Shown: positions 33,867 to 63,904 of the stretch, piece by piece
How the letters are laid out: each line of letters starts with the position of its first letter
Position numbering within the stretch: position 1 is the first letter of the stretch
Source of the DNA: an uncultured Gammaproteobacteria bacterium
GTDB lineage: Bacteria; Pseudomonadota; Gammaproteobacteria; Pseudomonadales; Ketobacteraceae
DNA length: 64,000 bases
NCBI GenBank assembly: GCA_913063125.1
Contig: CAJXZM010000002.1
Location: 1 to 64,000, forward strand
Direction: 5' to 3'
Notes under the pieces: model-generated
The model's database searches: none
The model's input: the letters and a program-made list of their open reading frames with translations, nothing else
What the model was told of the DNA's origin: nothing
Position numbers and translations under genes: made by a program

Positions 33867-35195
33867 CTACCTTCTTCCTCGGCCGATTCCATAATAGGCA
33901 AACCCTTTGCCCTCTACCATCGCAGGGTCAAATATATTACGACCATCGAACAAAACGTTATTAGACAAATCATTCTCGAGCTGCTTAAAATCTAACGCCC
34001 TGAAATTATTCCATTCCGTCATAATAACCAACGCATCAGCGTTAATGGTCGCTTCTTCTTTGGTCTCGACCAATGAAAAGTCTTCACGATCTCCGTAGAT
34101 TCGAGCAGTCTCCTCCATTGCCTTAGGGTCGTAAGCAGTAACACTGGCTCCAGCGTCCCATAACGCTTCCATCAGCACTCGGCTAGGAGCCTCACGCATA
34201 TCATCAGTATTGGGCTTAAACGATAACCCCCACAAAGCGATCTTCTTTCCAGATAGATCACCATCAAAGTATTTATGGATCTTACTAAAAACCACCTCTT
34301 TTTGAGCGTTGTTAATATCATCAACCGCTTTGAGCATTTGTGCGTTGTAACCGAATTTTCCAGCAGTTCGATGAAGTGCAGTGATATCTTTGGGAAAACA
34401 ACTGCCTCCATAACCAGCACCCGGGTAAATAAACTGAAAGCCAATACGCGGATCTGAGCCTATACCTAATCTAACCTGCTCAATATCAGCACCCACCGCA
34501 TCAGCTATATTAGACATCTCATTCATGAAGCTAATTTTTGTCGCCAACATTGAGTTGGCGGCGTACTTTGTCAATTCAGCAGAAACAGTATCCATCACAA
34601 GGAGCCTGTCGTGGTTACGATTAAAGGGAGCATATAATTCTTTAATAAGCGCTATCGCTCGATCACTTTCAGAGCCAACGATTATCCTATCCGGCTTCAT
34701 GAAGTCGGATACAGCAGCGCCTTCCTTAAGGAACTCAGGGTTTGAGACTACATCGAATTCAACATCAGCGCCCCTGCGGGATAAGGCGGCGTTGATGGAT
34801 GCTTCTACCTTCTTAGCTGTCCCTACGGGGACCGTCGATTTATCAATAACAACGGTGTACCCCTCAATGTGCGAGCCAACACTGTCTGCCACCGATAAAA
34901 CATACTTTAAATCCGCAGAACCGTCTTCATCAGGTGGTGTTCCTACGGCTATAAATACACAATCTCCGTGCTTAGCAGTCTTCTCCAGGTCAGTCGTAAA
35001 ATTGAGTGTTCCAGCCTGAACACCCTTTATCACCATATCCGAGAGCCCGGGCTCATATATCGGGACGTCCCCGGCAAGTAGTGCTTCAACTTTCTTCGCA
35101 TCCACATCAGCACACAAAACATCATGGCCCATCTCAGAAAAGCAAGCCCCTGTTACCAATCCGACATACCCTGAACCGTATATAGATACCTTCAC
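33867..35195 (-). CDS. ugd: UDP-glucose 6-dehydrogenase
   Basis: A 442-residue enzyme that oxidises UDP-glucose to UDP-glucuronate with two NAD+. The NAD motif [10 protein letters not shown] is at 7-16. The catalytic cysteine is in [13 protein letters not shown] (about 255-267). [18 protein letters not shown] marks the C-terminal UDP-binding domain. I chose GTG at 35195, giving [12 protein letters not shown], because AAGGGG lies about nine bases upstream. The longer frame lacks such a site. Its substrate comes from GalU and its product would feed the polysaccharide genes to the right. Confidence 0.93.
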
Positions 35196-35470
35196 TAACG
35201 TTATCCCCTTTTCAACTATAAAACCCATTAACAATCTAAAAACTTGAGCGTAGTATATTACTGTATTACCTCAATTTCACTTCCGAATTTAAAGTAATAT
35301 TGTCTATATTCAGTTAAATGAATAAAAAGCCCGTTATGACCAAGAACTAATCCACCGTTACCCTGTGAAGCTTCTCACAAATCAACCATTTACCTATAAA
35401 TTTGCTTGAGTTAAGCTCCGCCCCTTCCTAGAATTGGATTAAGAAAAGAAATTTGGTGCTGGAGTAGCTC

Positions 35471-40841: not shown

Positions 40842-42047
40842 ATGGCTAAGTTCAATTCAATTTGCGTATTAGGGTTGGGCTATATTGGCCTACCGACCGC
40901 ATCCCTCCTTGGCACAAAAGGGTATGATGTTTTGGGGGTTGACGTATCACAGCAAGTTGTCGACACAATCAACCGAGGCGAGATACACATCGTTGAACCT
41001 GATTTGGACTTATTGGTTAAATCGGCGGTTAATAGCGGCAAATTGAAAGCAGCTACCGAGCCTTCTCCTGCCGATATTTTTATCATTGCTGTCCCAACGC
41101 CTTTTAAAGACAATCACAAACCAGACCTTTCTTACGTTGAATCGGCAACCCGCGCCATCATCCCCCACATCAAGCCAGGCAACTTGATCATTCTTGAATC
41201 TACCAGCCCTGTTGGCACAACAGATGATGTAGTTGCAAAAATATTACAAGAAGAAGGTCTTGATGTCATTAATGACATCTATGTTGCCCACTGCCCAGAA
41301 CGGGTGCTTCCTGGCCGTATATTAATTGAACTTATTCAAAATGATCGCATCGTTGGCGGCACCACTCAGGCCGCAACAGAAATCGCAGCGTCGTTCTACG
41401 AAGAATTTGTTAATGGCGAAGTATTACGTACCAGCGCAAAAACCGCAGAAATGTCCAAGCTAACAGAGAATTCATTTCGAGATGTAAACATCGCCTTCGC
41501 CAACGAATTGTCCATTATTTGTGACATAGAACACATCGATGTATGGGAATTAATTTCTTTAGCGAACCGACACCCTCGTGTCGACGTTCTACAGCCAGGC
41601 CCAGGTGTCGGCGGACACTGCATTGCAGTTGACCCCTGGTTTATCATTGATCGCGCCGGTGACAAGGCCAAGCTTATTCGCGCGGCACGAGAAGTAAATG
41701 ATAGCAAGCCGCAATGGGTAATCGATAAGGTCACTGAAAAAGCAAACAAGTTTCGCCGTCCGGTAATCGCATGCCTTGGCCTTGCGTTTAAAGCCAATGT
41801 GGATGATTTACGCGAATCCCCTGCCCATGAAATCGTGAAAGCTCTAAAAGCCAAAGACATTGCTGACTTACTTATCTGCGAACCCAATATTAAGTCACAC
41901 CCTGAATTTGAATTAACACCTTATAATGAAGCAATAGAAAAAGCGGACATCCTATTGATTCTTGTTGATCACAAAGAATTCAAAACCATTCAACCAACCG
42001 TGTTTATTGAAAAGATGGTAGTGGATACTCGCGGCATCACAAAATAA
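40842..42047 (+). CDS. wecC: UDP-N-acetyl-D-mannosaminuronate dehydrogenase
   Basis: A 401-residue nucleotide-sugar dehydrogenase oxidising UDP-ManNAc to UDP-ManNAcA. The NAD motif GLGYIGLP is at about 11-18. The catalytic cysteine is in GPGVGGHCIAVDPWF (about 256-270), with the GGHC-IAVDPWF form typical of WecC rather than the GGSCFPKD of Ugd. CLGLAFKANVDDLRESPA marks the C-terminal domain. AAGAGGA precedes the ATG by seven bases. It is followed 35 bp later by wecB, which makes its substrate. Confidence 0.94.
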   Translation: MAKFNSICVLGLGYIGLPTASLLGTKGYDVLGVDVSQQVVDTINRGEIHIVEPDLDLLVKSAVNSGKLKAATEPSPADIFIIAVPTPFKDNHKPDLSYVESATRAIIPHIKPGNLIILESTSPVGTTDDVVAKILQEEGLDVINDIYVAHCPERVLPGRILIELIQNDRIVGGTTQAATEIAASFYEEFVNGEVLRTSAKTAEMSKLTENSFRDVNIAFANELSIICDIEHIDVWELISLANRHPRVDVLQPGPGVGGHCIAVDPWFIIDRAGDKAKLIRAAREVNDSKPQWVIDKVTEKANKFRRPVIACLGLAFKANVDDLRESPAHEIVKALKAKDIADLLICEPNIKSHPEFELTPYNEAIEKADILLILVDHKEFKTIQPTVFIEKMVVDTRGITK

Positions 42048-42082: not shown

Positions 42083-43237
42083 ATGCCCTCTTCCAAACCA
42101 TTAATAAAGGTTCTTTCAATCTTTGGCACCCGCCCAGAAGCCATAAAAATGGCTCCCGTGGTAAAAGCACTGGAACAGACAGAAGGTATTGATAGCCTTG
42201 TAGCAGTTACGGCACAGCATAGAGAGATGTTAGACCAGGTTCTTGCTCTGTTTAATATAACGCCTGATTTTGATCTCGATATAATGAAAGCCAATCAAGA
42301 CTTATTCGATATCACCTCCCGCATATTAATAGGACTAAGAACCGTCCTAAGCGAATGCAAACCAGACATTGTACTGGTGCATGGAGATACCACCACTTGC
42401 TTTGCCGCAGGTTTGGCCGCATTTTATCTTGGAATTCCAGTGGGTCATGTAGAGGCAGGGCTTCGTACAGGGAATATGCAAGCCCCCTTTCCTGAAGAAG
42501 CCAACAGGAGCCTGATTGGACGACTTGCCAGCTTGCATTTTGCACCGACCGAAGGCTCAAAGAATAATTTATTAGCAGAAAACATCAATGAAGATAACAT
42601 ACTTGTTACGGGCAACACGGTGATCGATGCGTTACTTGAAGTTCAAGCTAGCATCAATGATTACCAACCGTCTGACTGGCCCTCCTTACCGGAGAGAACC
42701 ATAACCTCGATTAATAACAACCCAGAAAAATTAATTCTAATTACAGGTCATCGCAGAGAAAATTTTGGCCAGGGGTTTGTCGACTTTTGCAACGCACTAC
42801 AACAGATAGCCAATCACAACCCCAACTGGCTACTGGTTTACCCGGTACACTTAAACCCAAACGTACAGAAACCAGTGCATGAATTACTCAGCAAATGTAG
42901 CAATATTCAACTCATACCACCTCAAGATTACCTCCCCTTTGTCTGGCTGCTAGATAAATGTGACCTTGTTATTACTGATTCGGGGGGCATTCAAGAAGAA
43001 GCACCATCGCTTGGTAAACCCGTATTAGTTACTCGTGAAGTTACTGAGCGCCCAGAAGCCGTTGCAGCGGGTACCGTTAAGCTAGTAGGCACCAATTCTA
43101 AGGCGATTATAGACAATACACTGTCTATTTTAACCAACCCAGAAGTATATGCGACAATGTCTCAAGCGCATAACCCCTACGGTGATGGCCTAGCTGCACA
43201 ACGAATCGTAAATGCCATTCTCGAATTTAAAGGGTAA
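42083..43237 (+). CDS. wecB: UDP-N-acetylglucosamine 2-epimerase (non-hydrolysing)
   Basis: A 384-residue GT-B-fold epimerase making UDP-ManNAc. It has FGTRPEAIKMAPV (about 14-26), VHGDTTTCFAAGLAAFYLG, HVEAGLRTGN, the TGHRRENFG catalytic region and ITDSGGIQEEAPSLGKPVL. Length and motifs match WecB/MnaA. Paired with WecC, it gives UDP-ManNAcA for the polysaccharide. It is followed 9 bp later by the FemAB-like gene, so wecC-wecB-femAB-GT probably form one unit. Confidence 0.95.
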   Translation: MPSSKPLIKVLSIFGTRPEAIKMAPVVKALEQTEGIDSLVAVTAQHREMLDQVLALFNITPDFDLDIMKANQDLFDITSRILIGLRTVLSECKPDIVLVHGDTTTCFAAGLAAFYLGIPVGHVEAGLRTGNMQAPFPEEANRSLIGRLASLHFAPTEGSKNNLLAENINEDNILVTGNTVIDALLEVQASINDYQPSDWPSLPERTITSINNNPEKLILITGHRRENFGQGFVDFCNALQQIANHNPNWLLVYPVHLNPNVQKPVHELLSKCSNIQLIPPQDYLPFVWLLDKCDLVITDSGGIQEEAPSLGKPVLVTREVTERPEAVAAGTVKLVGTNSKAIIDNTLSILTNPEVYATMSQAHNPYGDGLAAQRIVNAILEFKG

Positions 43238-45708: not shown

Positions 45709-45767
45709 GCTTTCTCTTCACATTAAAATAAACTAACCAATAAATACGTTATCGTAAAAGGAACTTG

Positions 45768-47528: not shown

Positions 47529-49010
47529 TCAGCGAAGTAATTTATCCATAGCCAGCCTCGCGATTTTGTTCTCTACATCCCCCTCCTTTCCAACAAGCTT
47601 CCATATAGTCAGAACAGATAATACGTAGCTTACGACACCAACAAAAATTGACATCAGCAAATCAAAAGCAACGTGTCCAATCAACACATAATGTATATAT
47701 CCGGACACGGATGCAACCATAACCAATGAAGCAGAAAGTGGCCGGGCGTATAGTGCGAAAAGACTGATTAATGGAATGCGTAATTCTAATTTGAGAATCA
47801 TATTAGATACTATTAACGCGAAAATTGAAGTAAAAAGAAAAGCCTGCGCAACACCGGTGACTCCATTCAAGCTCATAAAGTATATCATTGACAACAGAAA
47901 GGCAACTGCACGTATAAATAACTCTAACGTTGCTAATTTCGGTTTCCCCAATGCAAAATATATATAGCCGGCGTTAGAGCTCAACGCATAAAGGGAGCCA
48001 CCTAACGCCAAATAGACCACCGGCATTATAGCTTCCAACCACTGGTCCCCAAGCAACAGCGGAACAATGAATGGGGAAACAAGCGCAATGCCGGTTCCCA
48101 ACGGAAGTACTATAAAAGCAATGGCCCTTATCGAGTCTATATATAAGCTCCGCAACATAGCAAGATCCCCTGACGCTTTTGAATACCCCGGATATATCGC
48201 TCGATTCAAGCTCGCGGCAACTTCCGTAGTGGCCATCTTGGATATTTCTGATGCCAGTGTAAATATTGCAGCAGCATGGGGTGACATCACTTTCCCCAGT
48301 GCCAACTCAGGTGATTTTGTATTTAGAAAAATCAACAGGTTATTTAGAAACAACCACCGAGAAAATCCAAAAAGATCACTGCTCTTTTTGAAACTAATTG
48401 AAGGGCGAAATGAGTGCATCGTATAAGACATAGCAACCTCAAGAGACTTGAGTACTAAATTGCTAATGACGAGCGCCCAATAACTTCTAAGCGCCACTGC
48501 TAAAGCGATCGTAATAAAGAAGCCAATAACCTTCGGGACTATTAGTAACTTAAATTCCTTATGGAAGGTCATGTTTTTCTGGTAGTCTACAACTCCAACA
48601 TTACGGGCTCCGTGCAAAATAAACAACACAGATGTCGCCAGCGCGACATAGGACAGTTCAGGCTTATTGTAAAATTCACCAACAAACCCAGAGGCCGCCG
48701 CTAATATTATTGCAGACAATAGCCCAAAAAACATATTGTAAGTCCATGCTGTATTGTAATGCTCTGCACTAGATTTTTTTTGTTGGATAAGCACAGTCTC
48801 GAAGCCGAACTGTGTCAACGTACTAATCAAAGCAAATATCGACATTGCAATAGCTGCCACACCAAAATCATCTGGAGTGAGTAGTCGCGCAAGTATAATT
48901 GTACTAACCACCCCGATAAGCCTATAACTAAGCCTTAAAATAGTTGTCCAGGCTGCTCCCTTTGCCATAGCTATCTGTATATTTTCTTTCTGCTCTGTAA
49001 TCAATGACAT
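47529..49010 (-). CDS. Polysaccharide flippase, Wzx/MOP type
   Basis: A 493-residue polytopic membrane protein of the MOP exporter superfamily, with about 12-14 helices. The N-terminus GAAWTTILRLSYRLIGVVSTIILARLL-like block and LTPDDFGVAAIAMSIFA are the signatures of WzxC-type exporters. It would flip a lipid-linked oligosaccharide across the inner membrane. A second, different flippase lies at 54.8-56.2 kb, so two export steps or two substrates may exist. It is the middle gene of a run GT2-flippase-acyltransferase on the minus strand. Confidence 0.88.
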   Translation of the reverse strand: MSLITEQKENIQIAMAKGAAWTTILRLSYRLIGVVSTIILARLLTPDDFGVAAIAMSIFALISTLTQFGFETVLIQQKKSSAEHYNTAWTYNMFFGLLSAIILAAASGFVGEFYNKPELSYVALATSVLFILHGARNVGVVDYQKNMTFHKEFKLLIVPKVIGFFITIALAVALRSYWALVISNLVLKSLEVAMSYTMHSFRPSISFKKSSDLFGFSRWLFLNNLLIFLNTKSPELALGKVMSPHAAAIFTLASEISKMATTEVAASLNRAIYPGYSKASGDLAMLRSLYIDSIRAIAFIVLPLGTGIALVSPFIVPLLLGDQWLEAIMPVVYLALGGSLYALSSNAGYIYFALGKPKLATLELFIRAVAFLLSMIYFMSLNGVTGVAQAFLFTSIFALIVSNMILKLELRIPLISLFALYARPLSASLVMVASVSGYIHYVLIGHVAFDLLMSIFVGVVSYVLSVLTIWKLVGKEGDVENKIARLAMDKLLR

Positions 49011-50173: not shown

Positions 50174-50572
50174 TTTAATATTATACCCATACCGTTGTAA
50201 CAACGTAGGTTGTTGCCACAAAAAAAACGAATTTCTTGAACATCATGTCTTGAACGATAAAGAAAAAGTAACTAAAGGGCCGACGCTCGCAGAGCTAAAG
50301 GCTGCGTACCTACACACATTTCATTTGACAATAAAATATCTTTTAGACTTATTTTTTGATCTATCATTATGTTTTTCAAAAATCACAGTAACACTTACCA
50401 AAAGAAAGCACTTTAACATAACTGACATACTTACAACAGCCTCTTACCCAGTCTGAAGTTCGATACCAACTCATCTCTGAGGTACATAGATAACAAATCA
50501 TTACTAGAAAGGAAAAACTGTTCACTGTACAATCTGAAATTTCGAAAGTAGCCGATAGTACAGGGTAGCGGT
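50174..50572. promoter_or_regulatory. Divergent intergenic region between two acyltransferase genes
   Basis: About 400 bp of AT-rich DNA must hold both promoters. I found no sigma-54 GG-N10-GC element, no convincing -10/-35 pair and no credible small gene. Confidence 0.35.
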
Positions 50573-51658
50573 ATGAGCTGGATAAGCAATCAACTTGAGA
50601 TATCACACAGCAACCACACTCCTCTACGGCCAATGGAGGGCTTAAGAGGCATTGCTGTTTTCCTAGTGTTCCTGTTCCATTATTGTTCGCTAACAACCCC
50701 CTTCATCAACCCAAATTCTATTTCCGGAACCGCCCTGCAGTTCATTCATGGGTTTGGAGATATTGGCGTAGACCTGTTTTTTGTTCTCAGCGGCTTTCTA
50801 ATTTACGGTACCTTGATTCGAAAACCAACAAAATACACTCCCTACATAAAAAAGCGTATTACCAGGATATACCCAACCTTTCTCGCAGTATTCGTTCTGT
50901 ATCTTGCCCTCTCCGTGATTATGCCATCAGAAAGTAAATTGCCGAATGGCATTACCAATAGCGCCATATACATCATTCAAAACCTACTACTACTCCCCGG
51001 TATTTTAGATATCAAACCGATGATAACTGTCGCATGGTCTCTAAGCTATGAGTTCTTATATTATTTATTGATGCCCCTTATCATAGCTTCGTTAAGAATG
51101 CGCTCATGGCATTACAAAGCTCGAATAGCATTCTGGTCGATTGTTTCGATAGTTGGTTTTGCAGTATTTCATTTTTATGGCGGACATATAAGGCTAATAA
51201 TTTTTGTGTCTGGCATACTTCTTTACGAAATATATGACAACAAGCTTATCCGTCCCCCTGCTTATTTTGGGACCTTTTGCCTATTGCTTGCTGTTACAAC
51301 ATTTGCAGTTAGAGGTCATTTAGGCTTATCTGGCATTATTCCAACACTGATTCTTTTTATTCTTTTTTTCTTCACCTGCCTAGAATCATTTGTTTCTAAA
51401 ACCGGATCGGCAAGATGGCTAACATACACGCCTCTGCGGTGGTTAGGCAACATGAGCTATTCTTATTATCTTATACACGGACTAACACTTAAGGCTTGTT
51501 TTTTCGCGGCCGGAGCATTTTTAGAGCTAAGCAATCAGAATGAGTACATCATGTGGCTTGGAATTGCTCCTCTATTCGCTGTCACGCTGATAGTTTCATT
51601 CGGATTGTTTGTCATTATAGAGCGCCCACTATCTCTGCAGTCACCCACAAAGAAATGA
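50573..51658 (+). CDS. Acyltransferase family 3 (OafA-like)
   Basis: A 361-residue membrane acyltransferase. Blocks are PMEGLRGIAVFLVFLFHY (about 19-36, with the His), DIGVDLFFVLSGFLIYGTLI and VAWSLSYEFLYYLLMP. It is only distantly similar to the other acyltransferase next door, so not a recent duplicate. It stands alone on the plus strand among minus-strand genes. No terminator was recognised in the 247 bp that follow. It probably modifies the same polymer or lipid. Confidence 0.87.
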   Translation: MSWISNQLEISHSNHTPLRPMEGLRGIAVFLVFLFHYCSLTTPFINPNSISGTALQFIHGFGDIGVDLFFVLSGFLIYGTLIRKPTKYTPYIKKRITRIYPTFLAVFVLYLALSVIMPSESKLPNGITNSAIYIIQNLLLLPGILDIKPMITVAWSLSYEFLYYLLMPLIIASLRMRSWHYKARIAFWSIVSIVGFAVFHFYGGHIRLIIFVSGILLYEIYDNKLIRPPAYFGTFCLLLAVTTFAVRGHLGLSGIIPTLILFILFFFTCLESFVSKTGSARWLTYTPLRWLGNMSYSYYLIHGLTLKACFFAAGAFLELSNQNEYIMWLGIAPLFAVTLIVSFGLFVIIERPLSLQSPTKK

Positions 51659-51905: not shown

Positions 51906-53603
51906 TCAGCTTTTTATATTTTCAAGCAATTTTAGCTTACCAACTAAATACGAATAATTTCTTACGCCCAAAAAATGCAAAAGCATAGCCAAGGTCGTTT
52001 TACCATTATTAAAATACTTATGGTAAACAGCACTTTTCCTAACCTTAAGGAACAGTTTTAAATCGCAATATCTTCTCGGCTTCCTCTTCCCCCCCCACTG
52101 ATAGGTTAAGTCACTGGGAATATCAATCGGACATGGAACGTGGCCAGGATAAGTTTGCCATGGGGCGCTCCTAGCTGACTCCGGGAAAAAACTAAACCAT
52201 TGCATATAAAACTTATGATAAACCAATTCCTTACTGGGTATAGAGTAAATTTTCCGAAGGAATTTACTATCAAAAAACGGCAACAACAACTCAACTTTAT
52301 GTTCGCATATGGTTTCAAAATGCAATTGAAGATGTCGTTTTTGGTCATTATTCATCAGAAAATGATAGACTGATTTTGACGGATCCTCTTTATTAGGCAA
52401 ATATTCAGACTCTATTGATTTCCTTAAAAACTGATTCGACTTCGAAGCATATCTCTGCTTCAAAAAACCAGCTACTGGCACTGTTTTTGTTGTCGAAAGG
52501 AAAGATTCAATCGCAGACTGCTTATCCATACCATCTAACAAATCAATTTGATTGTTATCTATATAGACATATCCCAAACTCACGCTACCGCCATCTCCCG
52601 ACCATACAAGGTTAGGGTTTAGGTCGTCTAGCATCAAGTCAGAACTATCCGATATGGCTTTTGATATTAGCTTAGACCAATTAGGGTACTCGAGTGTGGG
52701 CAATATTTTTTCATGGTGAACAAGTGCGGCTTGGGCTGCAAATATTTTCGCACATTCGTTATCTTGGGATTTTTGAGTAGCAAAATTAAAAGAATGTAGC
52801 GTTTCAACATTTAATTTAACTTGAGAGGCAATCACTCTCGAATCCAACCCACCGCTCAAAAAGGAAACTGCATTTTTATTGTTGTCTAATCTGCATTTAA
52901 TCGCCTCGTCGAATAAGCTATACAGCTCCTCAGCATCAGAAGAAACAGAATTAGAGCTAACACTAATATTTGACCAATCCCAATATTCACCTAAAGAAAC
53001 ATTACCCTGCTCAATTGAAAGGAGCCCTCCTTTATCCAATCGTTTAATATGCTTGTACGGAGTTCTATCAGACAAACAGTACCCAAAAGCCAGATACTCA
53101 TTCAACCCGACAGTATCAATTGAGTTATCTATAATAGAAGAGTTTTCGAGAACGGACAATAATGATGAATATATAAATAGATGATCTTTGATGTAATAGA
53201 ATATTGGACGAACACCTTGCTTGTCGGTATACAAACTATAGGTTAGTTTCAATTCATTTATGGATACACCTGAAAAAACACCTCTTGCTGACTGCAGTGA
53301 AGTCGGCATTTCATTCTTACAAAAAGAGCTATTTATTGCTTCTATATCTTCAAATAGGCCATCACCGACATTATCTCTAATAATTGGATCACCTGCGATT
53401 ACAGTCGTGCAATTTCCCTTGACCGCTACTTTGCTATCTCGAAAAGCACCTACATCGTGAAACAAAAGTACACTGTTGCATTTTTCTATTTTGAAGTACG
53501 ATTTACTGCAGCATGATTCACTAAAGCTGCTGCCTAGAGTATCAAACTCTTCAGGCTGTACCCTTTCGCCTCTAATATTAATGATGCCTGCAAAAACCGT
53601 CAT
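51906..53603 (-). CDS. Asparagine-synthase-like protein lacking the glutaminase cysteine
   Basis: A 565-residue protein with the two-domain asparagine synthase fold. The N-terminal part keeps the fold of class II glutamine amidotransferases but begins MTVFAGIIN where active enzymes have MCGIAG, so the nucleophile Cys2 is Thr. The synthetase domain has the PP-loop SGGLDSR near 245-251. The usual G-x-G-x-DELFGGY is altered to SGDGGSVSLGYVY. AMP-forming activation of a carboxylate is still likely, but ammonia from glutamine is not. The start ATG overlaps the alr stop (ATGA), and GGAG lies about 10 bases upstream. Relatives with dead glutaminase sites use other amines. Confidence 0.85.
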   Translation of the reverse strand: MTVFAGIINIRGERVQPEEFDTLGSSFSESCCSKSYFKIEKCNSVLLFHDVGAFRDSKVAVKGNCTTVIAGDPIIRDNVGDGLFEDIEAINSSFCKNEMPTSLQSARGVFSGVSINELKLTYSLYTDKQGVRPIFYYIKDHLFIYSSLLSVLENSSIIDNSIDTVGLNEYLAFGYCLSDRTPYKHIKRLDKGGLLSIEQGNVSLGEYWDWSNISVSSNSVSSDAEELYSLFDEAIKCRLDNNKNAVSFLSGGLDSRVIASQVKLNVETLHSFNFATQKSQDNECAKIFAAQAALVHHEKILPTLEYPNWSKLISKAISDSSDLMLDDLNPNLVWSGDGGSVSLGYVYIDNNQIDLLDGMDKQSAIESFLSTTKTVPVAGFLKQRYASKSNQFLRKSIESEYLPNKEDPSKSVYHFLMNNDQKRHLQLHFETICEHKVELLLPFFDSKFLRKIYSIPSKELVYHKFYMQWFSFFPESARSAPWQTYPGHVPCPIDIPSDLTYQWGGKRKPRRYCDLKLFLKVRKSAVYHKYFNNGKTTLAMLLHFLGVRNYSYLVGKLKLLENIKS

Positions 53604-54712
53604 TCCCTTTCTCCATCTATAAAAATAAACTTTGAACGCTTACCTACATTACACATTACCTCATAGGGTATCGTGTCTGACCAAGTAGCTATATCATTTA
53701 AACTAATTTCCTCACCGCCGTGGCTACCTACAAGTGTAATTGTTGTGTCTAGCGTTACACCAATACAGTCGGTAATATCTAGCATCATATAATCCATGCA
53801 AATATTACCGACGATAGGTGTCTTGTGGTTGCCGACCAAAACAAAACCTTTATTGCTGGCGATACGAGGGTAACCATCTGCATACCCTACAGGTATGACA
53901 GCAATCATCGTTTTCCTTTTTGCTGTCCAGGTATGCCCATAACTTATTGACTCACCTACCGGTAACATTTTCAATTGACAAGGTTTGGTTTTCCAAGTTA
54001 GCACTGGGCGCACAAGCATTTCGTTTTGAGGATAAGGCGATACCCCATACATTAGCAAGCCAGGGCGAACAAGGTTAAACTTACTTTCTGTGGTTAAAAT
54101 ACCAGGGCTATTTGCTGCATGTACATAACGCGGACTAATTCCCGAGTTAGCAAGTTTTTCAATTGTATTTTCGAATAATTCAAGTTGATTTTGGGTAAAT
54201 AAACTCTGTGGATTATCTGCACAAGCAAAGTGGGTAAAAACCCCATCGATGACTAAATATGGGTTTTTTCGAACTTCCTGAATAGCTCTTGCCATGTCGG
54301 CTTGCTGCAGCCCAGTTCTTCCCATCCCTGTGTCTAACTCCAAGTGAACTTTCAACTCAGAAGTTAGATTTTTCGTTACGGTAACAAGGCATTCTTCACT
54401 ATGTATTACTGGAGTTAACCGGTATCGCCTAATAGTATCTAACTCGTTGAGAAACCCTGATCCAAATATCAATATATTTTGATCATTGACACCGCCCTCT
54501 CTAAGATCAACAGCCTCTAATATGCTTGACACTGCAAACCAAGATATACCAATTTCACACAACTTTTTCGCTATAGGTAATGCCCCATGACCATAGGCAT
54601 TCGCTTTTACGACTGCACACACATCAGCTTCAAGGATCGAGCCTCTTATCAATTGGATGTTTCTTTCTAGTGCATACAAATCAATATTTATTTCGGAACG
54701 CCATCTGGACAT
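53600..54712 (-). CDS. alr: Alanine racemase (PLP-dependent)
   Basis: A 370-residue fold-type III PLP enzyme. The cofactor lysine is in VVKANAYGHG (about 34-43). LDTGMGRTG, HAANSPG, RPGLLMYGVSP, the catalytic-tyrosine block ISYGHTW (about 250-256) and IGVTLDTTITLVGSHG complete the family pattern. The usual role is D-alanine for peptidoglycan. Here the gene is inside a polysaccharide cluster, 51 bp after a flippase and coupled by a 4-base overlap to a cysteine-less amidotransferase. That suggests a dedicated D-amino-acid supply. A racemase for serine or another residue cannot be excluded. Confidence 0.9.
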   Translation of the reverse strand: MSRWRSEINIDLYALERNIQLIRGSILEADVCAVVKANAYGHGALPIAKKLCEIGISWFAVSSILEAVDLREGGVNDQNILIFGSGFLNELDTIRRYRLTPVIHSEECLVTVTKNLTSELKVHLELDTGMGRTGLQQADMARAIQEVRKNPYLVIDGVFTHFACADNPQSLFTQNQLELFENTIEKLANSGISPRYVHAANSPGILTTESKFNLVRPGLLMYGVSPYPQNEMLVRPVLTWKTKPCQLKMLPVGESISYGHTWTAKRKTMIAVIPVGYADGYPRIASNKGFVLVGNHKTPIVGNICMDYMMLDITDCIGVTLDTTITLVGSHGGEEISLNDIATWSDTIPYEVMCNVGKRSKFIFIDGERE

Positions 54713-54762: not shown

Positions 54763-56217
54763 CTATTTATTTAGTACGCTTTTCAATTCGTCTTTGTGAA
54801 ATATCATATAAAAAAGACCAATATAACTAGCACCGACTAATATTTTTGCCATGAGTATTACAAATACAGACACATTATATTTATAGAGCTCCATATTTAA
54901 AACGAATAGAATGAACCACATAAATAGTGAAACAAAAAATGAGGGGGACCAACAATAAACAACGCTCAGTTCCGTGCTGAATTTTTTCCTTACCCTAATT
55001 AACACCAGTAAAAATGCGATCATAAAGCCAATGACCCATGCTAATGCAGTATAAACAATACCAAATTGCACCCCGATACATAATGCAACAATAACTGTAA
55101 AACAGATCATTACTGTATTTTCGATAGCAAACCTTGGTTCATTCATGGCTATAACAAAGTTATATATAACTGCATTGATCATCCTAAAGGGGAATACAAA
55201 TGCAAAAATTGTGATTATTGTGGCAGCTTCCAGCCACTTTTCTCCTACGAAAATAACAATCACTTCATTTGCTACAGCAGATATACCTAGAAATATGGGA
55301 AAAACAATTAGAGACAGGAGCTTAATCGAGCGCCCTAGATAGTATTTACTGGCAGCAAGGTCGTCATTTACTTTCGAAAACGCTGAGAAACCCACTTGAT
55401 TTAGAATTGCTGACGCCTTGGTCATTGGCATAGAAGCAATTTCTACCCCGACATTATAGATACCTAACTGCTGTATCCCCAAAACCTTACCAACTATGAT
55501 GGTATCAAGCTTATTATAGGAAAACCAAATCAATTCATTGAGCTGTATTTTGTACGAGAATGACAGGACTGCCTTTAGAGAATCAAATCCAAATGCAAGA
55601 TTATATTTGTTTTTATTCACACAATTCAGCAAAAGTGTTCTAATAAACAATTCCGCCGTAAACGAATAAACGAGCGCCCAATAACCTGCGCCAGAGTATG
55701 CGAAGTATAATGCAACAGCAGCAGCAACTAGTGCCGATGTACTCTCACATATCGCTTTAGCTTTAAAATTCATCGCTATATTGAGATAAGCGTTTGGGAT
55801 AATACAAAAACTATTAAGGGGTGTAATTACTGCCATCGCATAAATCACATTTTCAATTTGTAAATTCTGATAAAAAACAGAGATTTGCTGTGCGAACAAT
55901 GAAATTACAAGCCCTATAGTTATGTATAGAGCAAGTGAAAGTGTAAAAAGTTGGCTGCAGACTTTCTTATCGAGTTCCTGCGCCCTTACCAACGAGGTAA
56001 CAAACCCATTTACAGTGAATATTGTAATAAACGTAAAAAAAACAGAGGTTATAGCAATTAGGCCATAATCTTCTGGCGTCAAAATACGAATAACTAGGAA
56101 TGTTGAAGTCCAGGAAAAAAGCTGTACTAGCAATTTGCTTAGTGCCGACCACTTTAAACCTGAAAGTACCTTTGACTTAATATCCAAGCTTTCTTCCAAA
56201 CCACCCAAACAAAACAT
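54763..56217 (-). CDS. Polysaccharide flippase, Wzx/MOP type (second)
   Basis: A 484-residue polytopic exporter. The N-terminal part reads SGLKWSALSKLLVQLFSW and ILTPEDYGLIAITSVFFTF, the WzxC-like pattern. About 12-14 helices follow. The frame opens with ATG at 56217. A TTG at 56184, preceded by GGAAG, would give the shorter start usual in homologues, so the first 11 residues are uncertain. It heads a run flippase-alr-AsnB-like on the minus strand, a possible separate modification-and-export module. Confidence 0.87.
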   Translation of the reverse strand: MFCLGGLEESLDIKSKVLSGLKWSALSKLLVQLFSWTSTFLVIRILTPEDYGLIAITSVFFTFITIFTVNGFVTSLVRAQELDKKVCSQLFTLSLALYITIGLVISLFAQQISVFYQNLQIENVIYAMAVITPLNSFCIIPNAYLNIAMNFKAKAICESTSALVAAAVALYFAYSGAGYWALVYSFTAELFIRTLLLNCVNKNKYNLAFGFDSLKAVLSFSYKIQLNELIWFSYNKLDTIIVGKVLGIQQLGIYNVGVEIASMPMTKASAILNQVGFSAFSKVNDDLAASKYYLGRSIKLLSLIVFPIFLGISAVANEVIVIFVGEKWLEAATIITIFAFVFPFRMINAVIYNFVIAMNEPRFAIENTVMICFTVIVALCIGVQFGIVYTALAWVIGFMIAFLLVLIRVRKKFSTELSVVYCWSPSFFVSLFMWFILFVLNMELYKYNVSVFVILMAKILVGASYIGLFYMIFHKDELKSVLNK

Positions 56218-58013: not shown

Positions 58014-58778
58014 TTAACTTACATCATATCTCTCTTGAAGGTATTTGCAAAAAGCATCAATTGCCATTCCATTTTCAACGCAATACACATCACAGGTATG
58101 TGAAAATACCATTATCGCCTTTTCCCCCACGTAACTATACCGATAGACAACTACCGCAAAAAAATAGTCGTCTATTGTACCATCCAGGTTTACTTTATTT
58201 TCAAACTGACCTCCCCCAGCAATGATATCACTCTTTGCATATTCCAGCGCTTCTGCTGCGCCTAAGGGCAGCTCCGTATTTTTGTCCAAATAACATGCAT
58301 TAAAGTCAGGGTCCTGCATTACCCATTTATTGAGGCATGTATCGTAATATTCGACAAGCGTATGCGACCTGGGCTCTCCCGCGACGATCTCAAAAATATC
58401 AATCACTCGACATGAATAGCCAAGCTGCTCAAGAAGTTGCCTTAACAAATAGGCTCGCGGGCCACAAGATAAGTGCGGTGGACGCTCTTTTACTTGAAAG
58501 TATTGCCAAACTTTAATGACAACTTTTGATAAATCAAATGCATAGCTGTCATGCTCTTTATCGATCAGGTGAATGCTATTTTCATTTACCCAATTACGTA
58601 CCTGCGTTGTATTTTCAAAGTCTGAAGAATTTGTATCAAGAATATCCGGCATCACCAAATATATATTGTTTAGTGCCTGCCTTGACCGAGGCGACTGTAG
58701 TGACAGAATCTGCTTCCAATAGCTAAGCTTACGCTTTAATGCATATATCATTACGCGTATTGGAGAGCCCCGCCTCAC
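58014..58778 (-). CDS. Transglutaminase-like cysteine protease-fold protein
   Basis: A 254-residue protein with a transglutaminase-core fold. The Cys-His-Asp triad is visible as LSCGPRAYLLRQLLEQLGY (Cys near 104), RSHTLVEYYD (His near 139) and MQDPDFN (Asp near 156). No clear signal peptide is present. The start is uncertain: GTG at 58778 or ATG at 58751. It begins just after the stop of the upstream glycosyltransferase, so the two are probably co-transcribed. Such domains act as proteases, amidases or cross-linking enzymes. Its target here is unknown. Confidence 0.75.
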   Translation of the reverse strand: MRRGSPIRVMIYALKRKLSYWKQILSLQSPRSRQALNNIYLVMPDILDTNSSDFENTTQVRNWVNENSIHLIDKEHDSYAFDLSKVVIKVWQYFQVKERPPHLSCGPRAYLLRQLLEQLGYSCRVIDIFEIVAGEPRSHTLVEYYDTCLNKWVMQDPDFNACYLDKNTELPLGAAEALEYAKSDIIAGGGQFENKVNLDGTIDDYFFAVVVYRYSYVGEKAIMVFSHTCDVYCVENGMAIDAFCKYLQERYDVS

Positions 58779-58781
58779 CCT

Positions 58782-59996
58782 TCAGGCTTCCAATACTTGA
58801 TGGTATACATCAATTACCTTGTCACCACACCATTCCCACGTATATTTTGAGAAGTTATCAGAACAAAGTTTGCGATCTGTCTCGCTTGAAAGCAATAGTA
58901 AAATACCATCACGTAATGCTTCGTGATCGTCAGGTGGCACACAAACACCCTGATCCGGTTCAGATTCAAGAACCTCTCTAGATGCACCAACGTCAGCAAC
59001 AACTGAAGGAGTGCCACATGCGAGCGCCTCAGTTAGCACATTGGGACTACCCTCTCCACGACTCGATAGGCAAAACACATCGGCAGCATTATACCAATAA
59101 GCTAAATCACTGTTGCTAATTTGACCTGGAAAGATGACGGTATCTTTTAGATTATGTTGATTTATAAGTGCCATAAGCTCCTGCGTATAATCACCTTCAT
59201 GGCCAACAGATCCACCTATATAGAACCTAATATTTTCAATTCCCTGGCTACGCTTAATATCAATTAGTGCTTTTATCGTTAAATCAAAACCTTTTCTGTG
59301 AATGATTGATCCGACTGAAAAAATTATTTTTTTGTCCTGCGGAATCGATAACTTTTCACGGCATAAATGTTGTTCTATATAGGTAAACCGCTCAGTGTCC
59401 ACCCCGTTGCGTATTGCCGTTAATACCGCGGCATTTTTAGCATGCATAGACGCTAGTCTCTCTAAATCCTCACTCACACCAATCAGGCCGTCAGTATGCT
59501 TCAAATGCTCTGCCACACAACGCTCACTGAAATTACCCTCCCCTAAATGGAGTGCTTCATTGCCTCTAATAGTGGTAATAAGTTTTGCTTTTAACCGCTG
59601 CTTCAGGTAAATACCTGTCGGCAAATCTGGAAAGGTCCAATGCAAATCAATAATATCGATAGGTTGTCCAAGAAGCTCCCTTTCATAGATTGTTTGAACT
59701 GCATTTTTATAGCTATTAATCTCTAGTGATTTAAAAAACTTAGGTATTGATAAAAACCTAGGGTGATAAACCTTTACCCCTTCAATAATTTCTTCACTAG
59801 GTATAGCTGAGTATTTTTTGTAGTGATCAAAAAAACGATAAAGAGGGAACCAAGGGATTGGGTTAATTACGGTAATATTAACTTTTTTTGCAATCGCCTT
59901 TATCCTGTTATGTACAAAAACCCCATGATTCGGGAATTCCGAATTCGGGTACAAGTAACTAAGAACCAACACATTCAATTTTGAGGAGCTACTCAT
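58782..59996 (-). CDS. Glycosyltransferase, GT4 type
   Basis: A 404-residue GT-B glycosyltransferase. The start MSSSSKLNVLVLSYLYPNSE is followed by NHGVFVHNRIKAIAKK. The donor side has IFSVGSIIHRKGFDLTIKAL, FYIGGSVGHEGDYTQEL and the E-x7-E motif RGEGSPNVLTEALACGTP near 321-338. It overlaps the 3' end of the downstream-named amidotransferase gene by eight bases, implying coupled translation. Similar enzymes sit in exosortase-A polysaccharide loci. Donor sugar unknown. Confidence 0.89.
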   Translation of the reverse strand: MSSSSKLNVLVLSYLYPNSEFPNHGVFVHNRIKAIAKKVNITVINPIPWFPLYRFFDHYKKYSAIPSEEIIEGVKVYHPRFLSIPKFFKSLEINSYKNAVQTIYERELLGQPIDIIDLHWTFPDLPTGIYLKQRLKAKLITTIRGNEALHLGEGNFSERCVAEHLKHTDGLIGVSEDLERLASMHAKNAAVLTAIRNGVDTERFTYIEQHLCREKLSIPQDKKIIFSVGSIIHRKGFDLTIKALIDIKRSQGIENIRFYIGGSVGHEGDYTQELMALINQHNLKDTVIFPGQISNSDLAYWYNAADVFCLSSRGEGSPNVLTEALACGTPSVVADVGASREVLESEPDQGVCVPPDDHEALRDGILLLLSSETDRKLCSDNFSKYTWEWCGDKVIDVYHQVLEA

Positions 59997-61917
59997 TAAT
60001 AAGGACCTCTACATCGTTATTTTTCATCCAGCGCTCTAACACAATAAGCTGCCAAAGCACGCGATGGTTATCGGCCCGGTCGTCGTAATGGTCATTTATT
60101 AGTTTTTCTATTGCGTCACGGGCTAATATCTGGTGTATACAGGCATCCTTAGCTAGCAATACATTAGTAACATATTCAGATAACTCATTTTGAAACATTA
60201 ATTTTAATGGAGTAGGAAACCCCATTTTTTTTCGATTGATAATAGAGTCAGGCAACAAGCCTTTCATTATGTGCTTCAGCAAAAACTTACTGGTACCATT
60301 CTTGATTTTGTATTTAGACGGAATTGTTGCTGCAAACTCAACTAAACGGTAATCCAAAAATGGAACCCGTAACTCCAACGACGAAGCCATACTCATGCGG
60401 TCTGCCTTAATTAACAAATCATCAACGAGCCATGTTTTTGTATCGAAGTACAGCATTCTCGAAAGTAGGTCCAACCCTTTAGTTTTAGCAAATAATTCAT
60501 TGATAAAGTTTCGCACAGGCGTTGATTTTAAACCAAACAATGCCTGTTTAACCTCATCTTTATAAAGATAATGCTTATATGTCTCGCCGTAAGAGGATAT
60601 TCCCCGATACCGTTGTTCGAAGGTTTGACTCGTAAGCATTAGATACTTACTTATTTTTGGCGCTATTTTATCAATGGCAGAACCAAGGCTACCTAAAAAC
60701 CCAGAAAAGCCACCACCAACAAGCGACCGGATTTTTTCAATAACACCCATGTATTGATAAAAATCATAGCCGCCAAATATCTCATCTGAACCTTCTCCAG
60801 ACAATACCACAGTGACTTCTTCCTTCGCTAGCTGTGACACATAATGTAATGAAATTGCTGCAGCTTCTGTAACTGGCTCGTCCATCAAACAAATATAACG
60901 TTCTATAAATTCTTTAAATTCTTTTGGGTCAACTTTTATCTCATGATGCTTGGTATTAAACTCATCAGATACCTGTCTAGCAAATTGAGACTCATCAAAT
61001 TCCTCACCAAAATCATAAGCCACAGAGAAAGTATTTAGGCAAGACTCAGTACCTTGACTAAGCAAAGCTACGACCGCGCTGGAATCAATTCCACCACTGA
61101 GAAAAACACCCAAAGGCACGTCACTTCTTAACCGCAGGTCAATAGCGCTTTTTAATAACTTGGTTGTCTCTGTTGCGTAATAATCTAACCCTTTATCTTC
61201 AGAGCCATCATTAAAATTAAGTTCCCAGTATTCGTTTACCTCAAAGCCCAGTTCACTCAAAGTACCGCAATGCCCAGGCAGTAACCGTTTAATGCCGTCA
61301 TGCAAAGTATTTTCGCCGGGCACATAGCCAAAGCTCATATACTGGTCAATTAAACTCATTTTTGTTTGCCAGGGTTTATCGATCGCAGATAAAATACCTT
61401 TAATTTCTGACGCAAAAACAAAATCACCTGCGTCAGTAATATGGTAATAAAACGGTTTTATGCCTAGCCTGTCTCTCGCAACAAAAAGCTCTTGAGAAGC
61501 GGCATCCCAAATCGCAAAAGCAAACATTCCGTTGAATTTATCCAGACAAGGCTTACCATAAAACTTATAGGCTTGTAGAATAACCTCAGTATCTGACTCT
61601 GTTTCGAACTCGACACCCTTTTCCTTTAGCTCTTCTCTTATTTCAATATAATTATAGATTTCACCGTTAAAAACAATGGAGTAATCAATAACTGAGTCCC
61701 CTCCAATGATTGCATAAGAGTGCATCGGTTGGTGGCCTGCGTGGCTCGTGTCAATAATACTTAATCTTTTATGAGCTAAAGCAACATCAGCAAATGGTGA
61801 TTTCCACGTGCCGTCGTCATCAGGGCCGCGATAGCCAAAAGTATCAATCATTCTTTTGACTGTTTGTTCGTCTGCGTATGTCGAGCTACGTCCGACAATT
61901 CCAGCTATTCCGCACAC
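59989..61917 (-). CDS. Glutamine-dependent asparagine-synthase-type amidotransferase
   Basis: A 642-residue class II amidotransferase. The start is GTG giving MCGIAGIVG with the nucleophile Cys2 intact. The glutaminase part has YRGPDDDGTW and FNGEIYNY. The synthetase part has PP-loop SGGIDSSAV (about 269-277) and LSGEGSDEIFGGYDF (about 374-388). In polysaccharide loci such enzymes convert uronic-acid carboxyls into amides rather than making free asparagine. AGGA lies about seven bases before the GTG. It follows another amidotransferase by 43 bp and overlaps a glycosyltransferase by eight bases. Confidence 0.9.
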   Translation of the reverse strand: MCGIAGIVGRSSTYADEQTVKRMIDTFGYRGPDDDGTWKSPFADVALAHKRLSIIDTSHAGHQPMHSYAIIGGDSVIDYSIVFNGEIYNYIEIREELKEKGVEFETESDTEVILQAYKFYGKPCLDKFNGMFAFAIWDAASQELFVARDRLGIKPFYYHITDAGDFVFASEIKGILSAIDKPWQTKMSLIDQYMSFGYVPGENTLHDGIKRLLPGHCGTLSELGFEVNEYWELNFNDGSEDKGLDYYATETTKLLKSAIDLRLRSDVPLGVFLSGGIDSSAVVALLSQGTESCLNTFSVAYDFGEEFDESQFARQVSDEFNTKHHEIKVDPKEFKEFIERYICLMDEPVTEAAAISLHYVSQLAKEEVTVVLSGEGSDEIFGGYDFYQYMGVIEKIRSLVGGGFSGFLGSLGSAIDKIAPKISKYLMLTSQTFEQRYRGISSYGETYKHYLYKDEVKQALFGLKSTPVRNFINELFAKTKGLDLLSRMLYFDTKTWLVDDLLIKADRMSMASSLELRVPFLDYRLVEFAATIPSKYKIKNGTSKFLLKHIMKGLLPDSIINRKKMGFPTPLKLMFQNELSEYVTNVLLAKDACIHQILARDAIEKLINDHYDDRADNHRVLWQLIVLERWMKNNDVEVLINE

Positions 61918-61960: not shown

Positions 61961-63904
61961 CTAAACACCTAAATTGTTGTGCCAAACCTCAAAACAAACC
62001 AATAGCCATATGTTATTGGACAAATCGACTCTCCCTCTTCGATGCTTACACTCCCACCAAAGCTTTGTTACTTCATCAGTTTTAAAATAGCCACTTCGTG
62101 TTGTTTTTCCGTTTGCTAACAAATAGTGATCAACAAGATGAAATAAATCTGTCGTTAGCCATTCATACAATGGCACCGAGAACCCTTGTTTTGGCCGATT
62201 GACAAACATTGTGCCATATTTGTCCTTTAGTAGCTGTTTTAGCAGTATTTTTCTCTGATTTCCGTCGATTTTCATGCTGGTTGGTATAGAAAATGCGAAT
62301 TCTACTACACGATGATCTAACAGCGGTACTCTTACTTCCAAACCGTGTGCCATACTCATTCTGTCGACTTTGACCAAAACATCATCGATAAGATAAGACG
62401 TCAAATCAGCATATTGTGCATTTTTTATCTCGTCTTCACCAAATGGGCTTGCATTGTACAGGTCTCTAATACGGTTAGGCGGATAGGCTTTTCCCGTTAC
62501 TGTATCCTTTAATAAGCTTAACGCGTCGTCTGACAACAAACTCTTAGCCCAACCACACTGAAAAACAGATACAAGCGCATCGTGACGTTCCGCGAAAGAC
62601 CTGTCCAAGTTGGAAAAAAACAAACTGCCCCTTCGAGAATGACTGAGAGTTTTCCTCCCTATGGAGGCTACTAAGGATCGACCCTGGTGTGGCAATCTGT
62701 CATCAGCGGCTTTAAACTTCAATAACTCTGCGTACCAGTTATACCCAGCAAACAATTCGTCGCCACCATCCCCAGACAAGCATACTTTATAGCGCTTACT
62801 TGCGCTCTGGCTCAAATAATACATTGCGACAGCAGATGCATCAGCGAAAGGTTCATCAAAGTGACAAATAATGTGCTCGATATCATCACACATATCTGAA
62901 GGTACGTTTTCTTGGGAATACTGTATACCTAGAAGGCTGGCAACTTGGCTTGCATGTTTCGACTCATCAAATGCTACCTGTCCAAATTGAACGTTATGTG
63001 CAGAAATATCTGAATTATTCCTAGCCATTAAATCAACAACTAACGTTGAGTCAACCCCTCCACTAAGAAGCGCGCCAACGCCAACATCGACGTCACTCAC
63101 CATATGTGAGGATACAGCATCGGCTAAAAGAGCATGCAGCTCATCTCGTATCTGCGCTGCTTCGTTTAACGTTACGCTTGAAGAGTTTTGATCAGGCATT
63201 TCCGAACCTAGCTGCCAATAGAGTTGTTTATTCAACTGAATATTCTTATCTCTACCTAGCTTGACCGTTAAAATTGATCCCGCAGTTAACTTGTAGATAT
63301 CGTTATATACCGTGTGCTCTCCAGGGATATATCCATACCGACTGTAATCAAAGACGCCTTCAGTATTTATTTCTTTTTTGTATGCTGGATGACAATGAAT
63401 GCTCTTGATTTCAGAAGCAAAAATGAAATTATTTTCATCGTAGTAAAAATAAAAAGGTTTAATACCAAGCCGATCTCGCGCACAGATTAATGTTTGGTTA
63501 CGGGGATCCCACAAAGCACAGGCAAACATCCCAAGAAACTTCTCAAAACAGGCGTCGCCCCAATGTACATAACTCAGTAGTAATACTTCGGTATCTGACT
63601 CTGTGGTGAAATCATAGCCAACCGATACCAACTCAGATCTTAGTGCTTTATAATTATAGATTTCACCATTAAAAACCAACGTAACCCCAGAGGGCTTGTG
63701 TACTATTGGCTGCTGACCATGTAACGCATCAATGATCGCCAAACGCCTATGACCAAGCGCCACTCCAGCTGGCCAATCAACATAGTTTCCAGCACCATCA
63801 GGGCCCCGATGAGAAATAGCATCAGACATTTGGATAGTAATCGCTTCCGCGTGTTTTTTATCTCTCCATGAATGGGGTGAGATAGCACCACATATTCCAC
63901 ACAT
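61961..63904 (-). CDS. Exosortase-A-associated amidotransferase, asparagine-synthase type
   Basis: A 647-residue class II amidotransferase, start MCGICGAIS with Cys2 present. It has HRGPDGAGNY, FNGEIYNYKALR, PP-loop SGGVDSTLV (about 281-289) and LSGDGGDELFAGYNWY (about 380-395). It resembles the amidotransferase-1 group linked to exosortase A. It is clearly divergent from the other two asparagine-synthase homologues here. It ends 43 bp before the next amidotransferase gene and begins 8 bp after the stop of the truncated gene at the window edge. Confidence 0.9.
   Translation of the reverse strand: MCGICGAISPHSWRDKKHAEAITIQMSDAISHRGPDGAGNYVDWPAGVALGHRRLAIIDALHGQQPIVHKPSGVTLVFNGEIYNYKALRSELVSVGYDFTTESDTEVLLLSYVHWGDACFEKFLGMFACALWDPRNQTLICARDRLGIKPFYFYYDENNFIFASEIKSIHCHPAYKKEINTEGVFDYSRYGYIPGEHTVYNDIYKLTAGSILTVKLGRDKNIQLNKQLYWQLGSEMPDQNSSSVTLNEAAQIRDELHALLADAVSSHMVSDVDVGVGALLSGGVDSTLVVDLMARNNSDISAHNVQFGQVAFDESKHASQVASLLGIQYSQENVPSDMCDDIEHIICHFDEPFADASAVAMYYLSQSASKRYKVCLSGDGGDELFAGYNWYAELLKFKAADDRLPHQGRSLVASIGRKTLSHSRRGSLFFSNLDRSFAERHDALVSVFQCGWAKSLLSDDALSLLKDTVTGKAYPPNRIRDLYNASPFGEDEIKNAQYADLTSYLIDDVLVKVDRMSMAHGLEVRVPLLDHRVVEFAFSIPTSMKIDGNQRKILLKQLLKDKYGTMFVNRPKQGFSVPLYEWLTTDLFHLVDHYLLANGKTTRSGYFKTDEVTKLWWECKHRRGRVDLSNNIWLLVCFEVWHNNLGV

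Follow-up and report, generated by a model that had tools for sequence, protein, structure and literature searches.

A candidate racemase, AsnB-like ligase and flippase cassette for D-alanine decoration in an XrtA-type polysaccharide locus of an uncultured Ketobacteraceae bacterium

A three-gene cassette on the minus strand

The DNA considered here is the first 64,000 nucleotides of contig CAJXZM010000002.1 from the genome of an uncultured gammaproteobacterium of the Ketobacteraceae (GCA_913063125.1); this whole stretch is referred to as the window. Within it, three consecutive minus-strand genes, coding for a flippase (Wzx2), a second alanine racemase (Alr2) and a protein of the asparagine synthetase (AsnB) superfamily (AsnX), follow each other with gaps of 50 bp (wzx2/alr2) and -4 bp (alr2/AsnX). 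We tentatively propose that they form a decoration cassette, in which AsnX would join D-alanine to a uronate of the polysaccharide repeat unit before export by Wzx2; this reading is possible rather than probable. Four bases, ATGA, hold both the AsnX start codon ATG and the alr2 stop codon TGA; a GGAG/AAAGGGA stretch lies immediately upstream. Start/stop overlaps of 4 bp are frequent within operons and are by themselves weak proof. An earlier note on this DNA had already placed both open reading frames (ORFs) on the minus strand, overlapping in this way behind a flippase in a polysaccharide locus, and the sequence confirms it at the following coordinates:

51906..53603, minus strand: AsnX, AsnB-superfamily protein of 565 residues, glutaminase residues lost, PP-loop kept
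53600..54712, minus strand: alr2, second alanine racemase of 370 residues, motifs intact
53600..53603, minus strand: ATGA overlap of the alr2 stop and the AsnX start
54763..56217, minus strand: wzx2, MOP/Wzx-type flippase of 484 residues
53598..53600, minus strand: Thr2 codon of AsnX (Cys2 column of the panel alignment)
52839..52856, minus strand: PP-loop SGGLDS of AsnX, residues 250-255
52581..52601, minus strand: SGDGGSV of AsnX, residues 335-341, with Ser340 in the GxDE Asp column
52158..52160, minus strand: Trp482 of AsnX, in the C-terminal Lys column

Sequence and active-site residues of AsnX

AsnX belongs to the asparagine synthase superfamily, scoring 46.9 bits against PF00733 (cut-off 21) and carrying the PP-loop; its match to GATase_7 (18.4 bits) lies under the cut-off of 25. 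It reaches none of the NCBIfam cut-offs: it scores 91.2 bits against TIGR01536 (asn_synth_AEB, the glutamine-hydrolysing AsnB; cut-off 267.1), 83.7 bits against TIGR03108 (XrtA amidotransferase; cut-off 816.9), and 79.6 bits against NF033535 (lasso-peptide cyclase; cut-off 525).

Residues were compared in a MAFFT alignment of 29 proteins, hand-picked by similarity and not at random, which includes three proteins of the window and omits near-duplicates, truncated ORFs, repeat copies of window genes and L016, an ORF whose start is unclear. In this panel, AsnX is joined by a single relative, L034 from a Magnetococcales metagenome-assembled genome (MAG). Both have Thr in the Cys2 column, Ser in the GxDE Asp column (Ser340 in AsnX) and Trp in the C-terminal Lys column (Trp482 in AsnX), where the other 27 proteins invariably have Cys, Asp and Lys, respectively. 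Both have Ala for the Asn of NGEIYN, as does the panel protein L008; the glutamine-site Glu is Asp in both, and Ala in four viral-contig proteins; the glutamine-site Arg is Ser in AsnX and is retained in L034. AsnX keeps the SDTE Asp (Asp86), SGGxDS and SGDG, and its DELFGGY region is altered to SGDGGSVSLGY (residues 335-345). Loss of the glutaminase site is supported by this alignment; the Thr at Cys2, the changed DELFGGY motif and the intact PP-loop, all noticed earlier, stand, and further glutaminase residues are changed as well.

In beta-lactam synthetase, the GxD Asp is a metal ligand and the Lys serves to stabilise the intermediate. AsnX has neither the second metal Asp nor the catalytic Lys of such ligases, their positions being occupied by Ser340 and Trp482, so that its catalytic details would differ from those of both AsnB and beta-lactam synthetase. 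The loss of both residues is also what favors a different explanation, namely that AsnX is catalytically degenerate and, instead of adenylating a substrate, has a structural or regulatory role as a partner to Wzx2 or to the locus's two Cys-bearing AsnB proteins. The PP-loop and SGDG are nevertheless retained, and the identity between AsnX and L034 is highest in the synthetase half (42% over AsnX residues 411-500), not in the N-terminal 100 residues (17%); the values for the intervening and flanking stretches are 33% (101-200), 25% (201-300), 34% (301-350), 23% (351-410), and 26% (501-565). Judged by these identities, the N-terminal end is the part that has drifted most and 411-500 the most constrained stretch. 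The retained PP-loop and SGDG, with the best-conserved stretch in the synthetase half, make the site look reworked rather than decaying, and we regard a degenerate AsnX as unlikely.

Predicted structure of AsnX

The structure of AsnX was modelled from a 15-sequence alignment (mean predicted local distance difference test score, pLDDT, 67.1; predicted template-modelling score, pTM, 0.71); a first model, from four sequences (mean pLDDT 48.7), was set aside in its favor. Over nearly its whole chain the model has the AsnB fold, with Z-scores of 30.8 to 22.3 against TsnB9, AsnB, and the beta-lactam and carbapenam synthetases. The individual comparisons (VIA-align 2) are TsnB9 7ylz (Z 30.8, root-mean-square deviation 3.3, 496 residues aligned), AsnB 1ct9 (Z 28.9, 3.7, 433 aligned), beta-lactam synthetase 1jgt (Z 26.6, 3.5, 385 aligned) and 1mc1 (Z 26.0, 426 aligned), and carbapenam synthetase 1q15 (Z 22.8, 3.8, 412 aligned). 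This fold is partly imposed, because 13 of the 15 input sequences are Cys-bearing AsnB-family proteins; for parts of AsnX it is independently borne out by sequence searches, through PF00733 and through matches in the PDB, where a two-sequence profile finds human asparagine synthetase best (E 1.7e-9) and the single sequence finds TsnB9 (E 0.024, weak). The pLDDT falls below 50 at residues 304-328, 344-406, 485-535, and 546-565; as much of the acceptor pocket lies in these stretches and Trp482 at the edge of one, neither can be judged from the model.

The model retains an Ntn-like (N-terminal nucleophile) N-domain, and Thr2 is common to both AsnX members, as would be expected if Thr2 became the nucleophile after Met removal and the N-domain were an Ntn amidohydrolase with another substrate. 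This is highly improbable: a Thr2 found in two sequences is weak evidence, conservation is lowest in the N-terminal 100 residues, and most glutamine-site residues are gone.

Distribution of AsnX

Across all searches a single relative of AsnX was found, in the Magnetococcales MAG G868 (contig JADGBX010000221.1); the identity of the two proteins is 28-30%, with alignments of 505 to 565 residues. A scan of genome contigs with the single sequence gave no match, and a profile scan gave this one locus. In the draws of genomes by order, class and phylum, at most three candidates were scored per genome, and the draws overlap, so that their counts are not additive. At 1e-30, the source genome alone matched in the order (1/390) and in the class (1/369); at 1e-19, 4 of 398 genomes of the phylum did so, namely the source genome, G868 and two with Cys-bearing AsnB proteins. 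The order of G868 gave one genome out of 48 at 1e-25, G868 itself. Within the family, 9/15 genomes match at 1e-10, the best match outside the source genome being partial (7.9e-18), and the ten such matches included in the panel have Cys2. Viral contigs yielded no match with the query A1 and 36 loci with the query A2, which includes two ordinary AsnB proteins; the 12 of these loci checked in the panel all carry Cys2. Searches of plasmids and phages with tblastn returned partial matches only, with 80% query coverage in 0/149 plasmid and 0/3 phage records.

In the Magnetococcales locus, a flippase lies 188 bp from AsnX on the opposite strand, and it is the sole neighbor common to both AsnX loci. 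The link between racemase and AsnX rests on one genome and the flippase neighbor on two. No description of an alr gene paired with an AsnB-like gene was found in the open-access literature, as covered by titles and the openings of abstracts.

The second alanine racemase

Alr2 is an alanine racemase by its score of 337.8 bits against TIGR00492 (cut-off 168), and K36 (VVKANAYG), R132, H161, R216, Y258 (ISYGHT), and Y350 are at the usual places; we take K36 to be the Lys that binds pyridoxal phosphate and Y258 to be the catalytic Tyr. That it is an extra copy is supported by the genome's other alr, which sits between dnaB and radA (neighbors named by reading the sequence). In a survey of the family, a dnaB-linked alr is present in 15/15 genomes, and two PF00842 matches occur in three: the source genome, the congener G002, and G014, where they lie on two contigs that each carry dnaB-alr-radA. 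Relatives of alr2 at 1e-65 were found in 1/390 genomes of the order, the source genome itself. Plasmid matches labelled vanT, 33-36% identical among the 20 matches listed of 319 records, were not used as evidence.

A VanT-type serine racemase was considered for Alr2 and dropped: it scores 307.1 bits against the VanT-G catalytic-subunit model, below the cut-off of 460, and its Tyr350 aligns with the Asn of VanT 4ecl, an Asn at the position equivalent to Tyr354 being presumably a VanT feature. The Tyr makes alanine the more likely substrate.

The extra alanine racemase of G002 (L103) is 27.6% identical to Alr2 and faces an ORF that by eye is like a nonribosomal peptide synthetase.

The flippase

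Searched at 1e-40 in 200 genomes of the phylum Pseudomonadota, wzx2 matches five: the source genome, the Magnetococcales genome through its AsnX-adjacent flippase (3.0e-62), and three others (1.5e-54, 1.2e-44, and 4.2e-43). The nearest flippase to wzx2 among the 199 other genomes is therefore the neighbor of the Magnetococcales AsnX; in the genus, nothing outside the source genome is better than 1.2e-28. When nine flippases are compared with each other, wzx2 as query finds the Magnetococcales flippase at 203 bits, followed by others at 163 and 154, and the Magnetococcales flippase as query finds wzx2 at 207 bits, followed by those of genomes G855 (199) and G771 (198). In the 15-kb region around the G855 flippase, nothing matches AsnX with an E-value under 0.25.

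The surrounding locus

AsnX closes a long run of minus-strand genes. Further upstream, the part of this run that lies in the window holds two AsnB proteins resembling the XrtA amidotransferase (asnB1, 526.5 bits, and asnB2, 539.5 bits, in tandem and both below the TIGR03108 cut-off of 816.9), a glycosyltransferase of family 4 (GT4), and a protein without Pfam match that has a signal-peptide-like start. Beyond the window end, the same contig carries a polysaccharide deacetylase, exosortase A, a chain-length determinant, an export protein, and a priming sugar transferase, the XrtA gene lying at about 70424-71932 of the contig. Among the nearby plus-strand genes are wecC, wecB, and one for a PEP-CTERM FemAB protein; the window further encodes an XrtA-type histidine kinase, an XrtA-type response regulator, and a tetratricopeptide-repeat protein slightly below the PrsT cut-off. 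This gene content supports an XrtA-type polysaccharide locus that carries genes for uronic acids (wecB, wecC, and one like ugd). The features outside the cassette are:

59989..61917, minus strand: asnB2, Cys2-bearing protein like the XrtA amidotransferase
61961..63904, minus strand: asnB1, Cys2-bearing protein like the XrtA amidotransferase
40842..42047, plus strand: wecC, UDP-ManNAc dehydrogenase, uronic-acid supply
42083..43237, plus strand: wecB, UDP-GlcNAc 2-epimerase
33867..35234, minus strand: gene like UDP-glucose dehydrogenase
47529..49010, minus strand: wzx1, flippase common to congeners, marker of the ancestral locus

Some further genes may be recorded. Two divergent acyltransferase-3 genes, at 49067-50221 (minus strand) and 50573-51658 (plus strand), lie beside the cassette, perhaps by chance; in proteins of the VanT type, an acyltransferase-3 domain is fused to the racemase domain, the function of the acyltransferase part being described as unknown in the consulted part of PMC9558356. 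The protein of 254 residues at 58014-58778 (minus strand) has no Pfam match, and its SCGPRA, SHTLVEYY, and QDPDFN stretches resemble, by eye, the Cys-His-Asp set of transglutaminases. The protein with the signal-peptide-like start, at 56423-57781 (minus strand), shows weak, partial similarity (24-28%) to similarly placed ORFs of congeners. At 45765-46466 (plus strand), an ORF of 233 residues with a TTG start has no Pfam match.

Synteny and origin of the cassette

In the draft genomes of two congeners, G002 and G004, the genes for asnB2, GT4, the protein at 58014, and wzx1 keep their relative order, interspersed with other genes, at identities of 74/79%, 68/76%, 53/62%, and 57/59%, respectively. 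The 20-kb stretches concerned hold no orthologue of wzx2, alr2, or AsnX; their matches to AsnX are ordinary AsnB proteins, and those to wzx2 are orthologues of wzx1. The whole drafts equally lack an AsnX, Alr2-like, or Wzx2-like protein, as searched at 1e-10 for AsnX, at 1e-65 for alr2, and genus-wide for wzx2. The GC content at third codon positions (GC3) is 0.340 for alr2 and 0.352 for AsnX, the limits of the cassette's range (0.340-0.352), and as GT4 (0.333) and asnB2 (0.362) are similarly low, GC alone is no marker of an insertion; it is synteny that marks it. The best reading is that the cassette was horizontally exchanged and joined an XrtA-type exopolysaccharide gene run at its end. The single polysaccharide locus holds two distinct flippases, of which only wzx1 has close relatives in congeners.

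Proposed mechanism and alternatives

The simplest mechanism to give each of the three genes a role is that a uronic acid of the repeat unit is D-alanylated and the unit then flipped. Alr2 would raise cytosolic D-alanine; AsnX, by means of its PP-loop, would adenylate a carboxyl, most likely C6 of a uronic acid, on either the lipid-linked repeat unit or a nucleotide sugar; the amine of D-alanine would attack this adenylate to give a D-alanyl uronamide; and Wzx2 would flip the decorated unit afterwards. The earlier suggestion that a D-amino acid is joined to a uronate carboxyl gains from the extra racemase, the uronic-acid genes, and the known D-alanyl uronamides, and loses from a relative without an adjacent racemase.

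Asparagine synthetase activates the carboxyl of an amino acid, and AsnX might do likewise, activating that of D-alanine itself and joining it to an amino sugar. Aminoacyl amino sugars are indeed known from bacterial surface glycans (excerpts of PMC3210612 and PMC7468200), but the locus carries uronic-acid genes, and among its genes, of which a part is annotated, no unusual amino-sugar pathway was identified; such N-D-alanylation is distinctly unlikely.

Several points weigh against D-alanylation of a uronate by AsnX. All 27 other panel proteins keep the residues that Ser340 and Trp482 have replaced, and since the lost residues are needed in AsnB and beta-lactam synthetase alike, analogy with enzymes that exchange the amine is insufficient: the parallel with beta-lactam synthetase and lasso-peptide cyclase drawn in the earlier note holds for the lost glutaminase and the AsnB fold, and fails, for beta-lactam synthetase, at the metal Asp and the Lys. 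To judge from the residues, there is a real chance of another amine or of a non-catalytic role. The search for genomes pairing alr with a Cys-less AsnB, which the earlier note had proposed, returned one relative with a flippase and no adjacent racemase; no alr lies beside the Magnetococcales AsnX on its 5.2-kb contig (the MAG being about 80% complete), and the one alr found in that MAG is the dnaB-linked copy. As only two AsnX members are known, the alr2/AsnX pairing is without statistics. The flippase link is, by the reciprocal sequence comparison, one-sided and weaker than first taken. The two Cys-bearing AsnB proteins of the locus could already modify its uronic acids, and the acceptor may be a uronate carboxyl or an amino sugar.

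The lack of an alr neighbor beside the sole relative, which does have the flippase, also favors a polysaccharide amide ligase that uses an amine other than D-alanine (an amino sugar, another amino acid, or a polyamine), with alr2 a passenger or a general supply of D-alanine. What speaks against this is the tie between alr2 and AsnX, which overlap by 4 bp, run in the same direction, and have similar GC3, in a genome that already has another alr; we consider a different amine somewhat doubtful.

The proposal of D-alanylation can be put in a bolder form, in which AsnX would found a new AsnB-superfamily branch whose reworked adenylating site couples D-alanine from the co-transcribed Alr2 to uronic acids of lipid-linked repeat units, ahead of a dedicated flippase; this we hold to be rather unlikely. 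If D-alanylation by AsnX is true, the cassette would be a dedicated genetic route to D-alanyl uronamides, which have so far been described chemically in several bacterial polysaccharides. AsnX would then illustrate how far the synthetase site of AsnB can change, with the glutaminase residues and the metal and Lys positions replaced and the PP-loop kept. Racemase, AsnB-like ligase, and flippase together make a small cassette that is directly testable.

Comparison with known systems

With AsnB (TIGR01536, 1ct9), AsnX shares the two-domain architecture and the PP-loop; it differs in the absence of Cys2, the altered glutamine site, and the replacement of the GxDE Asp and the Lys. Beta-lactam synthetase, carbapenam synthetase, and lasso-peptide cyclase have the AsnB fold without glutaminase and use an amine other than ammonia. 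Of these, beta-lactam synthetase retains both metal Asp and catalytic Lys, whereas AsnX has both positions replaced. A further AsnB relative, which forms nitriles (PMC13060819), is not drawn on here. The best structural match to the AsnX model, TsnB9 (7ylz), is only 13-14% identical; its depositors call it a hydroxyamidotransferase, and its substrate is not comparable with that of AsnX. Alr2 resembles Alr (TIGR00492), with a score above the cut-off, and differs from the VanT serine racemase, which has Asn at the position of Tyr350.

WbpS-type proteins transfer ammonia from glutamine. In Porphyromonas gingivalis, asnB (wbpS) directly follows wbpE and wzx and is required for the uronamide form of the linking sugar (excerpt of PMC7468200). 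AsnX resembles the XrtA amidotransferase (TIGR03108) in belonging to an XrtA polysaccharide locus, and WbpS in the setting of a wzx-adjacent asnB (PMC7468200, same excerpt); it differs from WbpS-type proteins in that the site for glutamine-derived ammonia is missing.

The product proposed for AsnX has close counterparts, here taken from excerpts of the papers cited. The capsule of Microbulbifer sp. KMM 6242 contains GalNAcA6(D-Ala) and a Pseudoalteromonas polysaccharide contains mannuronoyl-L-alanine (PMC3210612); the exopolysaccharide of Vibrio alginolyticus CNCM I-4994 has D-Ala and D-Ser amide-bonded to galacturonic acid (PMC4663550); and the capsular polysaccharide and exopolysaccharide of Colwellia bear Thr and Ala (PMC5852497). 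The excerpts name no gene for the D-amino-acid amide step in Microbulbifer and Pseudoalteromonas (PMC3210612) or in Vibrio (PMC4663550), and the word racemase is absent from the Vibrio paper (PMC4663550). A further counterpart is the K17 capsule of Acinetobacter baumannii (cluster KL17/KL18), in which D-Ala is attached at C6 of GalNAcA (excerpt of PMC10715181): it carries the product proposed for AsnX and has a known gene cluster, the comparison being one of products. A gene for D-alanyl uronamide chemistry may already have been proposed for the K17 cluster, and this capsule makes the chemistry proposed here more ordinary.

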